From positions 1 to 40,612 of the IMG/VR virus record IMGVR_UViG_3300023181_000047: DNA of 40,612 nucleotides; one strand, 5' to 3'. The DNA is from a virus. Position numbers and translations under genes: made by a program. The notes under the pieces were generated by a model. The model ran no database searches and was not told the origin of the DNA. It was given only the letters and a program-made list of their open reading frames with translations. Positions within the stretch are counted from its first letter, which is position 1, and each line of letters starts with the position of its first letter. This document shows, piece by piece, positions 6,838 through 15,764 of the stretch.

Positions 6838-7311
6838 CTACTCGTTCCTCTCTTCTGTGGTGGTTTGGATAGAGGGCTTGGGACGACGACGAATGCCCTT
6901 GCGGTGCTCGCGCATATACTCGCGCATCCATGCCTTCTTATCGAATTTGGGTGCCGGAGCTGGGGTCGAACCAGCGTTGATGGCGTCAAAGGCCACTGTC
7001 CTGCCATTAGACGATCCGGCATTAGTATCGACTGGATGAGGCTCGAACTCATCACGGGTCGCCTCTATGCTTCCCACCGGTTTGACCCCTTTCGGGTCGG
7101 CCTGTTTCCCCGTCAACAGCGCCGTCGATTGTGTATGGACCTCTTTTCGAGGCGGCAATGCTGACACATCACTCTTTGGCGTAACCGGCCTGTCAGGGCT
7201 TGGAGTGCCTATCCTAACTTTGGTGAGACGATCAGGCCGCCACCCGACTGGCTTCTTAGGGCAGTCGAGCCAATTATGGGCGGGGCTTTTGCAGTACTCA
7301 CAATTCTTCAT
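6838..7311 (-). CDS. Zinc-knuckle protein whose frame runs through a tRNA gene
   Basis: 157 residues. The N-terminus has a textbook CCHC knuckle (C4-x2-C7-x4-H12-x4-C17), suggesting nucleic-acid binding. The C-terminus (FDKKAWMREYMREHRKGIRRRPKP) resembles the basic tails of phage DNA-binding proteins. Residues roughly 97-121 are the translation of a tRNA-Gln gene lying at 6948-7021 on the same strand (SSNGRTVAFDAINAGSTPAPA is a typical tRNA shadow). Either the tRNA inserted in frame into a real gene, or two shorter genes have been fused by an open tRNA. The start at 7311 has a poor ribosome-binding site. Confidence 0.5.
   Translation of the reverse strand: MKNCEYCKSPAHNWLDCPKKPVGWRPDRLTKVRIGTPSPDRPVTPKSDVSALPPRKEVHTQSTALLTGKQADPKGVKPVGSIEATRDEFEPHPVDTNAGSSNGRTVAFDAINAGSTPAPAPKFDKKAWMREYMREHRKGIRRRPKPSIQTTTEERNE
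6948..7021 (-). tRNA. tRNA-Gln (anticodon UUG)
   Basis: 74 bases including an encoded CCA. The acceptor is TGCCGGA/TCCGGCA, 7 perfect pairs. The D arm is GTC-TAATGGCAG-GAC. The anticodon stem is GTGGC/GCCAT with loop CTTTGAC, giving anticodon TTG. The variable loop is 4 bases. The T stem GCTGG/CCAGC carries loop TTCGACC. The discriminator is C and CCA follows directly. The fold is canonical apart from the discriminator. It overlaps the reading frame at 6838-7311. Confidence 0.88.
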
Positions 7312-12888: not shown

Positions 12889-13180
12889 CGTTATTCTCCA
12901 TCTGCGCTACTAAGCTGCTGAACACCGAACCAACCGACCTTGACTGATTTCCTATCGCTCTCTGCTGTGTGTTTTGGACCCAGCTTGGCTCTATGGATTG
13001 CCAGCCTTTTTCTATCATCATCTCAGCGGCGGCGTTAGGATCGGGACATGCTGCCAGCTTCTTAGCCAAGAGCTTTGCTGCGAAGTCTGTCATGGGCTTT
13101 CGAAGGCGTTGGCGGTGTTTGATTAGCTCCTCTGCTAAATCCGCCTCTACGGTTGTCTCTAGCCATTGGCGAGGGGTCAT
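12806..13180 (-). CDS. Replication protein, C-terminal DnaT/replisome-organiser-like
   Basis: 124 residues from ATG 13180 (ATGA-coupled). The segment LIKHRQRLRKPMTDFAAKLLAKKL, then DPNAAAEMMIEKGWQSI, matches the conserved tail of phage replication initiators (W-x-x-H-R-x-x-x-x-K-x-x-T ... D-x-x-x-x-I-x-x-S-I-x-x-G-W-x-G). The N-terminal winged helix usual for such proteins is missing, so it may act with the adjacent proteins. With SSB, the DnaA-like protein and the possible loader it forms a replication module that would recruit the host helicase. Confidence 0.65.
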   Translation of the reverse strand: MTPRQWLETTVEADLAEELIKHRQRLRKPMTDFAAKLLAKKLAACPDPNAAAEMMIEKGWQSIEPSWVQNTQQRAIGNQSRSVGSVFSSLVAQMENNDGVRRIQSSDSVRQDVPRLPFAFDEPR

Positions 13181-13686
13181 ATTGCCCTCTCGCTCTCGTG
13201 GTGCGCAGTGCCGCCGAAGTTCGTCAGGTTGTAGTAGTTTTTCAACCATGCCTCGTCCTCGGATTTGGCGATGTAGCACGGGAAACTAACCATCATTGAC
13301 CAACGGCGCTCGTCAGGCTTCTCTAGTTCTGAGAACCGGCATCCAAATACCGAAAACTCATCCTCTACGTAGTCCTGAATTGCGCTCATTCGCTGCTGCC
13401 CATCGATAAGCAAATGATCGTTCTTAGAGCCCAATTCAGTCTGGTTATACGAGTAAGTTCCGATTGGGATTCCAAGCCATGCGCTTTCGATGAACGAAAC
13501 CTTCTGACCTTTCGTCCAGACAAGCCCGCGCTGCCAATCTGGCAAGACAAATCCCATCACTGTTCGCCGCCCGTGCGTTTCCACCTCTCCATCCTTCCAA
13601 TACCTATACTGCCCCATCGCGTGCGCCATTGTGGTGCTTGTGCTTTGCCCCAGATCGAGCTGCCTCGGCATCCTTTTCTCGCTCAT
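13177..13686 (-). CDS. DUF262 (ParB-like) domain protein
   Basis: 169 residues forming a single N-terminal DUF262 domain. LPDWQRGLVW (residues 48-57) precedes SFIESAWLGIPIG and the signature LLIDGQQRMSAIQDY, followed by NLTNFGGTAHHE. DGQQR is the conserved motif of GmrS/ParB-like NTP-using nucleases. The C-terminal DUF1524/HNH half found in GmrSD-type enzymes is absent. ATGA-coupled to both neighbours. Whether it is a nuclease, a DNA-site regulator or an anti-defence factor cannot be told from sequence. Confidence 0.85.
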   Translation of the reverse strand: MSEKRMPRQLDLGQSTSTTMAHAMGQYRYWKDGEVETHGRRTVMGFVLPDWQRGLVWTKGQKVSFIESAWLGIPIGTYSYNQTELGSKNDHLLIDGQQRMSAIQDYVEDEFSVFGCRFSELEKPDERRWSMMVSFPCYIAKSEDEAWLKNYYNLTNFGGTAHHESERAI

Positions 13687-14060
13687 TCCACCAATCTCCT
13701 TACTGCAATCATCGCCTCTTCGGCCCCGAACCCGCTTACCGGCCCTTCAAATGCTGGCTTTATGAACTTGGTCCGGTGTTTCTTGTGCTTCGATGCCCAA
13801 AGCACAATCGTGAACTCTCCACTAACCAGCTTCGCAATCTGATAAGGGAACGGCGATGGGCAAAAATCAATATCTCCCTGATCGCACCAGATCACAACGT
13901 CATTCAATGGTGCGAGCCAGCCCTTGGGAACGTCCAGGTACAGGTCTTTCAATGCTAGGCGACCCATATGCGCAGATAGGTGCATTTTGGGCTTCACGGG
14001 ACGCGCTTCGGGGTTTCCCTTCGTGGCGTCGTAACCTTTGTAATTCGGATGGCTTGTCAT
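13683..14060 (-). CDS. Unknown protein coupled to the DUF262 gene
   Basis: 125 residues (MTSHPNYKGYDATKGNPEARPVK...). Middle segment DVPKGWLAPLNDVVIWCDQGDIDFCPSPFPYQIAKLV, ending AEEAMIAVRRLVE. It overlaps the DUF262 gene as ATGA and is the first gene after the 862-base gene-free segment. A possible 9-codon leader peptide (14093-14064) precedes it with its own AAAAGG site. No family recognised; likely works with the DUF262 protein. Confidence 0.7.
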   Translation of the reverse strand: MTSHPNYKGYDATKGNPEARPVKPKMHLSAHMGRLALKDLYLDVPKGWLAPLNDVVIWCDQGDIDFCPSPFPYQIAKLVSGEFTIVLWASKHKKHRTKFIKPAFEGPVSGFGAEEAMIAVRRLVE

Positions 14061-14626
14061 CCTTTAATCCTCGGTTGTTATTCGTTCAGACATAGCTTCG
14101 CCTTTTCCCCCGTGATATTGCACCACGCCCCAGACTAAGGGGAGCCCGAAGGCAGGGTAGTCATAGTCCCCGATAGCGCTTTTAGGCCCGCTATCTCAGA
14201 TCGTGGAGTCCAGCCCACAACCCAACGTGATAAGCCTACACGGTTACCCGCGTCACGGTCACGGGTCGCAAAGAGAAGCGTTGCCCGCAGATTCGTTTCT
14301 AGTCTCCGCATTGTCGAGGCCAACGGGTAAGCCCTTCGTCCCAAGCCGATTAAGTGTGGCGCATGGCCAAAGGTACACCGCTTCGCAGCTTGGCGACCTA
14401 ATGGCTTCAACAATATCTGGGTAAGGGCTTGAACCAAAGTGCTAGACTTGGTATTTAAACCTTACCGAATGTGTCGAAACCACTTCGGTCATCGTCGGGG
14501 AACTTGCAATTCGTCCGACGCCTTCATTTCTAGACGCATCCCTCCCCAGCGTCAAGAGGCTCGCTCCGTTCATTCGTGGCGGGCCTCATTGCTTCAGAGG
14601 ATAGGATGGGGTAGTATTTGACTAAT
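14061..14626. other. Gene-free, strongly structured segment; candidate large ncRNA
   Basis: No coding gene is supported here. Inverted repeats are dense: 14172-14178 with 14189-14195 (7 bp), 14420-14426 with 14460-14466 (7 bp) enclosing 14433-14437 with 14448-14452, 14465-14473 with 14481-14488 (8 bp with a bulge), 14493-14498 with 14515-14520 (6 bp), and a GCC-TTCG-GGC tetraloop (minus strand) near 14150. ORFs in both directions lack ribosome-binding sites and coding character. Together with the adjacent tRNA-like element it recalls large phage RNAs such as GOLLD and ROOL, but I cannot confirm membership or strand. Confidence 0.5.
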
Positions 14627-14716
14627 GCGGAGAGATGGCAGTTGGCTTCTGCTCTCCGGTACGTGGACTAGCTAGACACGGCCATGTGAGTTCGGTTCGA
14701 TCCCGGCTTCTCCGCT
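14627..14716 (+). tRNA. tRNA-like element, non-canonical
   Basis: 90 bases with a perfect 7-bp acceptor (GCGGAGA/TCTCCGC) and a consensus T-loop (GGTTCGATC; loop 14696-14702) on a stem with one mismatch. A D-like arm (GGCA...TGCT with GG in the loop) is visible. The centre folds poorly. The best anticodon-like arm (CGTG/CACG plus tandem G-A pairs, loop CTAGCTA at 14668-14674) is separated from the D arm by about 8 extra bases, and an alternative helix ATGGC/GCCAT competes. No CCA is encoded. It may be a decayed tRNA or a tRNA-like domain of the neighbouring RNA. Confidence 0.4.
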
Positions 14717-14735
14717 CCTCACCCATCCAAAGCCA

Positions 14736-14764
14736 TTGCACTAATACAGTAATAGAGCTATTGT
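14736..14764 (+). promoter_or_regulatory. Sigma70-like promoter for a small RNA
   Basis: TTGCAC (14736-14741), a 17-base spacer, TATTGT (14759-14764). A short inverted repeat (AATAG-AG-CTATT) lies across the spacer and -10 box. The predicted start, near 14771, leads straight into a hairpin-rich segment that ends at a terminator. Confidence 0.5.
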
Positions 14765-14770
14765 TTTATG

Positions 14771-14920
14771 GATAGCAGCACGGAAGGACGTGCGTGGCCG
14801 GATGAAGTCGGAGGGTCGAGAGCCAGTTAGCCGACAGGTCGCTCTCAAAGCAGGTACTCAAGCCCTGCCTATCGATACAACGGCCCGGATAGCTTATAAC
14901 AGCCTCCGGGCCTATTTGTT
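14771..14920 (+). ncRNA. Candidate small structured RNA (about 150 nt)
   Basis: Between the promoter at 14736-14764 and the terminator at 14882-14920 there is no ORF with a ribosome-binding site. The segment folds into consecutive hairpins: GCACG-GAAGGA-CGTGC, GAGAGC...GCTCTC enclosing 17 bases, and GCAGG-TACTCAAGC-CCTGC. It is transcribed opposite to the flanking genes. The arrangement is what a free-standing phage sRNA would show. No known family recognised. Confidence 0.5.
14882..14920 (+). terminator. Intrinsic terminator, plus strand
   Basis: GGCCCGG (14882-14888) pairs with CCGGGCC (14906-14912), loop 17 bases, followed by TATTTGTT. On the minus strand no T-run follows, so the direction is plus. 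It ends two bases before the 3' end of the convergent gene at 14923. Confidence 0.65.
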
Positions 14921-14922
14921 GG

Positions 14923-15126
14923 TTAGGACATAGATGGCGGGAGCGGATAGAGATTGTTATTGGTACTTTCGATGGCAGAGGCGAAGGCCTCAAGCGCCAT
15001 TGGCCCATCAGTCCCATTTGGAAGCGTCTTGGCAAACTCCCGTGCCCTTGTGGCGAGGCTGGCGGTAAACTGCTCGACAACCATCTTTGTCAGTGCCCGC
15101 ATAACTTCATCGTTCGATACGTCCAT
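14923..15126 (-). CDS. Small unknown helical protein
   Basis: 67 residues (MDVSNDEVMRALTKMVVEQF...), helical, ending SAIESTNNNLYPLPP. Last gene of the minus-strand group before the structured segment. No family recognised. Confidence 0.7.
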   Translation of the reverse strand: MDVSNDEVMRALTKMVVEQFTASLATRAREFAKTLPNGTDGPMALEAFASAIESTNNNLYPLPPSMS

Positions 15127-15153: not shown

Positions 15154-15390
15154 TTAAGACCAATTGTCGCCGTAGTCTGCCATGTCATATGTTGACCAAT
15201 CCCTAAGCGGCAGGGAATTATATCGAGATTGGCAGTCCTTACTCTGATCCGGCGTTAGCTTTGGAAACCACGCATATTCCTTACTCGCATAAAGGGCATA
15301 GTTTGGGTCATCACGAATTACCTCCCAGACCATTTTGCCCTTATGCTTGCCGTGTAGAATTTCCGTTTGCTCCTGAATGTGTTCTTCCAT
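15154..15390 (-). CDS. Small unknown protein, weak DUF3820-like pattern
   Basis: 78 residues (MEEHIQEQTEILHGKHKGK...). The segment HGKHKGKMVWEVIRDDPNYALYASKE resembles the G-K-x-x-G-x-x-x-x-x-V...D-P-x-Y-x-x-W repeat of DUF3820/exodeoxyribonuclease-associated small domains. It sits beside rusA, so a recombination accessory role is possible. Confidence 0.65.
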   Translation of the reverse strand: MEEHIQEQTEILHGKHKGKMVWEVIRDDPNYALYASKEYAWFPKLTPDQSKDCQSRYNSLPLRDWSTYDMADYGDNWS

Positions 15391-15413: not shown

Positions 15414-15764
15414 TCATAGAGGGGATATAGTCACAACGACCTTCCCGCCCTTCACTGGTTCTCCGAATATCAATGACGCCTGGAATGTTCTGTCATTGAT
15501 GCCCAGAGCGTCTGCTATTCCATCTCTGCTTGGTTTGAGCATAGAGATGGCATTATCGTCATCCATTGCGTTCGCGGTCTTCGGGTGAACCGTCCACACA
15601 ATCGCCGCGCCTTCATGAGCCCACCGATTGCGCCCAAGAGCAGCTAGGACAGCCACCCACGCCCATTTGCGGGCCTTCTTGGCCTCCCTGGCCTTTTCCA
15701 TCCTATGCGCCCTGCCATTGGGGCTAAGGGCTTTGCTTGGGAAGGGCAGTTCGAAGGTAATCAT
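15414..15764 (-). CDS. rusA: RusA-family Holliday-junction resolvase
   Basis: 116 residues, close to the usual 120. Conserved features: FPSKALSPNGRAH near the N-terminus, the basic stretch AKKARKWAW, the acidic cluster NAMDDDNAISMLKPSRDGIADALGINDR (residues about 66-93, supplying the metal-binding Asp residues and the conserved Lys), and a C-terminal VVVTI strand. It cuts four-way junctions as a dimer during recombination and before packaging, consistent with the ERF and NinB genes on the other arm. Start by ATGA overlap. Confidence 0.9.
   Translation of the reverse strand: MITFELPFPSKALSPNGRAHRMEKAREAKKARKWAWVAVLAALGRNRWAHEGAAIVWTVHPKTANAMDDDNAISMLKPSRDGIADALGINDRTFQASLIFGEPVKGGKVVVTISPL

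Follow-up and report, generated by a model that had tools for sequence, protein, structure and literature searches.

The 862-nt gene-free segment of an uncultured phage probably gives rise, from its minus strand, to an orphan structured noncoding RNA that acts as a free molecule. A large structured phage RNA, centred on 14301-14635 of the minus strand and possibly reaching to 14085, was the best-supported reading, and it was supported in part. Structured RNA was the best explanation because the excess in stability and in fold definition was strand-specific, the stretch was noncoding, and the favoured strand was that of the operon genes. A preliminary description of this DNA, made from the letters alone, had proposed a large phage ncRNA at this place. 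The structured RNA itself was supported by the strand-specific fold excess in a noncoding stretch, whereas the tRNA-like element, the plus-strand promoter and terminator, and the link to GOLLD and ROOL were not. Counted against a structured RNA were the failure to find a homolog by sequence or covariance model, the failure to find a promoter or terminator by scan, and the choice of domain edges after folding.

Genomic setting of the gene-free segment

The window (the whole stretch analysed, a 40,612-b IMG/VR virus record) carries markers of a tailed phage, namely a major head protein (phrog_334), portal, terminase, SSB, and RusA. By capsid, the nearest named relative is Rhizobium phage RHph_Y1_10 (54%), and the viral contig that comes closest shares 67% identity. 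Prophage relatives were found mostly in Bartonella, Bradyrhizobium, and Methylobacterium, and the closest kin of the phage infect Rhizobium-type bacteria. The segment lies in a leftward (minus-strand) operon in the order RusA (15414-15764), ORF 15154-15390, ORF 14923-15126, segment, ORF 13683-14060, and a GmrSD_N-like ORF (13177-13686). RusA is conserved in the closest full-length relative, and in RHph_Y1_10 other genes directly follow the homolog of ORF 14923-15126.

The absence of genes was confirmed, the segment running from the stop of one minus-strand ORF to the start of the next with no supported ORF between them. Its internal ORFs (longest 100 aa) matched no PHROG or Pfam family, and no period-3 coding signal was present across it, the normalised power being 0.5-1.1 (random level) versus a median of 3.1 over the genome. 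Neither iterons nor tandem repeats were found in the segment, and no sigma-70 promoter-like or terminator-like sites were detected by scan within 13950-15000. In alphaproteobacterial phages, scans for a sigma-70 consensus give poor guidance. The promoter and terminator placed at the right end by the preliminary description were not recovered. A strong hairpin does exist there (14882-14912); its T-tail is weak on the plus strand (TATTTGTT) and absent on the minus strand, and the terminator scan did not call it. It is a possible terminator or boundary. The features of the segment and its flanks are listed in Table 1.

Table 1. Positions in the window of the segment, its flanking genes, and its predicted structural elements (p, pair probability).
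Feature	Positions	Strand	Description
Gene-free segment	14061-14922	-	862 nt between two minus-strand genes; proposed leftward transcription with both
Upstream flanking gene	14923-15126	-	67 aa; homolog in Rhizobium phage RHph_Y1_10, 36.7% over 90% of length
Downstream flanking ORF	13683-14060	-	125 aa; GAGGA ahead of its start; matches no known family
Domain 1, core of the structured RNA	14301-14635	-	335 nt; predicted to hold four main arms inside a long-range closing helix
Domain 1 closing helix, 5' arm	14620-14633	-	13 bp, p 0.95; includes a perfect 10-nt inverted repeat
Domain 1 closing helix, 3' arm	14303-14315	-	pairs with 14633-14620
Arm a	14537-14608	-	12 bp and nested 11-bp hairpin; p 0.93-0.97
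Arm b	14493-14520	-	CGTCGG/CCGACG hairpin, inner 5 bp; p 0.88-0.92
Arm c	14395-14490	-	long arm with helices of 4, 13, 10, and 7 bp; p 0.78-0.99
Arm d	14341-14393	-	8 bp and inner 6-bp hairpin; p 0.80-0.95
Domain 2	14085-14289	-	closed by 14287-14259/14115-14087; GTAA tetraloop hairpin, 12-bp hairpin, 7-bp hairpin; weaker support
12-bp hairpin	14882-14912		8-bp perfect GC-rich base; p 0.98; 10 nt beyond the stop of ORF 14923-15126

Fold strength, strand, and predicted architecture

The whole 862 nt folded more stably than shuffles, by 30 kcal/mol on the minus strand and by 15 kcal/mol on the plus strand, the minus-strand gap being the largest among 52 sampled segment/strands of the phage (z -3.95). 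Over 551 nt, the minus strand gave z -4.40 versus -1.60 for the plus strand. The segment had been described as hairpin-dense; the density was indeed above chance, but it was not evenly spread, the structure residing mainly in 14301-14635 on the minus strand. This domain 1 (14635 to 14301) had an MFE of -132.1 and z -4.9, a value flattered by edges that were picked after folding. On a 335-nt grid phased to those same edges, its minus strand reached z -5.7, the lowest of 427 phage windows, with the next value elsewhere at -3.7. Compared with 60 shuffles, z was -5.8 and the ensemble diversity was 0.109 per nt versus 0.232 +- 0.063, a level that none of the 60 shuffles reached. The plus strand of the same DNA gave z -3.4, and its ensemble was no better defined than those of shuffles (27/60). 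Both the fold excess and the fold definition therefore favoured the minus strand over the plus strand, and the minus strand is also that of the flanking genes.

Part of the domain (14335-14525) folded by itself at z -3.9, and 160-nt windows alone gave only modest values. The same helices returned when domain 1 was folded alone, within 551 nt, or within about 900 nt, and its pair probabilities were mostly above 0.8. Domain 2 (14289 to 14085, minus strand) scored z of about -2.4 to -2.6 with an ensemble diversity that was not unusual, and the 5' third (14636-14922) was near background. The UUCG-type tetraloop noted previously is present as cUUCGg at about 14144-14137 on the minus strand, where in domain 2 it could form only as an alternative pairing seen by eye.

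A regression scan of the phage and its kin ranked the minus strand of domain 1 fifth of 6538 windows, and the other top windows, where inspected, were inverted repeats or hairpin clusters. Some other phage windows scored similarly by way of terminator-like palindromes, strong structure was confined to domain 1, and nothing searched held a relative, all of which would suit a sequence that is non-functional or acts at the DNA level. It could be the remnant of a gene, cargo that was acquired, or a DNA site working in cis (for origin or packaging), and its fold excess would be owed partly to post hoc edges and inverted repeats. We regard this account as unlikely, since a strand-specific fold definition is not expected from DNA palindromes and the segment showed neither iterons or tandem repeats nor a trace of a protein family.

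A structured RNA, as we propose it, would be transcribed leftward with the early genes as part of the operon. Its core would be a 335-nt multi-branched domain held by a long-range 13-bp closing helix, and a second, less certain domain would follow. It would most likely act in its own right, either cut from the operon transcript or staying within it, and by analogy with what has been proposed for GOLLD and ROOL it could, for example, serve as a scaffold or bind ribosomes or proteins. Alternatively, the same fold might belong to a long 5' UTR, a structured leader that influences in cis how ORFs 13683-14060 and 13177-13686 are expressed and is not a free RNA. Gene and structure share a strand, the structured part ends about 25 nt ahead of a start codon that has its own Shine-Dalgarno-like GAGGA, and the scan found no terminator between the two. 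However, a leader of about 550 nt that includes a second closed domain would be long, and none of the riboswitch and leader families of Rfam matched the segment, leaving the leader quite improbable in our judgement.

Comparison with known RNA families and search for relatives

An Rfam search, which the preliminary description had suggested, returned nothing in the segment at gathering thresholds and only chance-level matches when these were relaxed. The proposed tRNA-like element (14627-14718, plus strand) scored 88.5 in ARAGORN, which is sub-threshold and lower than the scores of five further places in the 40-kb window that are themselves sub-threshold, and the Rfam tRNA model did not match it. 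No cloverleaf above threshold and no match to the tmRNA model were found in the segment. The sole tRNA of the window, a tRNA-Gln at 6948-7021, lies about 7 kb away.

GOLLD is a phage-encoded, multi-branched RNA of >800 nt in many members whose function is unknown, and ROOL is a large phage- or prophage-encoded RNA with a complex predicted fold (PMC12286853). The segment is likewise phage-encoded, is of a size (about 850 nt) similar to that of GOLLD and multi-branched by prediction, and shares with ROOL its large size and complex predicted fold. It differs from GOLLD in lacking a match to the family model, a recognised conserved 3' region, and an adjacent tRNA, and from ROOL in lacking a model match and lying away from a tRNA island. 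Neither the GOLLD model (RF02032), which covers the conserved 3' region, nor the ROOL model (RF03087) matched the segment in the Rfam-wide search or as separate models, although the separate ROOL search, whose control rang nowhere, was weak by itself. The size, phage setting, and predicted branching would be compatible with a divergent member of either family, but without a match at gathering or relaxed thresholds and without a neighbouring tRNA island such a relationship is very improbable. The earlier likening to GOLLD and ROOL holds as a comparison of kind only, and membership is not supported. Domain 1 (about 335 nt) is also of the size of a group I intron (RF00028). The segment, however, did not match the catalytic core, for which controls rang in 8 genomes, and no gene is interrupted: the upstream gene is approximately full length compared with its homolog, and the ORF downstream begins at a start of its own with a Shine-Dalgarno-like site.

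No homolog of the segment was found in phage and plasmid records searched by blastn, in 14 and a further 46 related records or genomes, or in about 780 alphaproteobacterial genome draws (397 from the order and 385 from the class). Viral contigs scanned for exact patterns gave no match, flank-protein scans gave no close kin, and the full relative nearest to the phage, at 67% capsid identity, did not match the segment. Two single-sequence covariance models (R1 and R2), run on loci, related records, and the order, returned only the window itself and chance-level scores. Such models have little reach and the collections searched may omit near relatives, so the missing homologs are weak evidence against function; they also put covariation of the helices beyond reach.

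Several short matches were rejected. In the closest full-length relative (G002), a 20-nt blastn match was at chance level and inside a predicted gene, and a 921-nt predicted gap was largely filled by a 300-aa ORF. A 23-nt match in another genome (G008) lay inside a predicted gene, a related phage had a 17-nt T-arm match inside an integrase-like ORF, and a 31-nt match (94%) in a host genome lay inside a 562-aa peptidase-like ORF and was judged to be chance.

We tentatively suggest that the segment may represent a large structured phage RNA of a new class, one without relation to GOLLD or ROOL that is expressed from the strand of the genes in a leftward operon of a tailed phage of Hyphomicrobiales-like hosts. 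As a candidate for such a new RNA, the 335-base block is credible but unproven. Phages are known to carry very few RNAs that are both large and structured, and among these GOLLD and ROOL build RNA-only cages. If true, an unrelated class in alphaproteobacterial phages would mean that phages have evolved such RNAs repeatedly. A single orphan sequence is a lead, with its strand, its core (14301-14635, minus strand), and its helices now defined and directly testable.

Other features of the window and of related records

The kin scan drew attention to two places in related phage records. Its top-scoring structured window (L159, 12400-12735) is a cluster of strong hairpins at gene junctions, and another window that outranks domain 1 (L169, 11730-11840) holds a long, near-perfect terminator-like palindrome between convergently ending ORFs. 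In the window itself, minus-strand ORF 13177-13686 (169 aa) matches only the N-terminal part of GmrSD_N / phrog_1583 (417 positions) and is possibly a truncated or stand-alone DUF262-type domain, and ORF 15154-15390 (minus strand, 78 aa) has a sub-cutoff ExoX-like_C match (E 1.7e-5). The tRNA-Gln(ttg) on the minus strand is genuine (ARAGORN 110, Rfam 56.5 bits). Since it sits within a 157-aa ORF on the same strand (6838-7311), this ORF is either spurious or reads through the tRNA.
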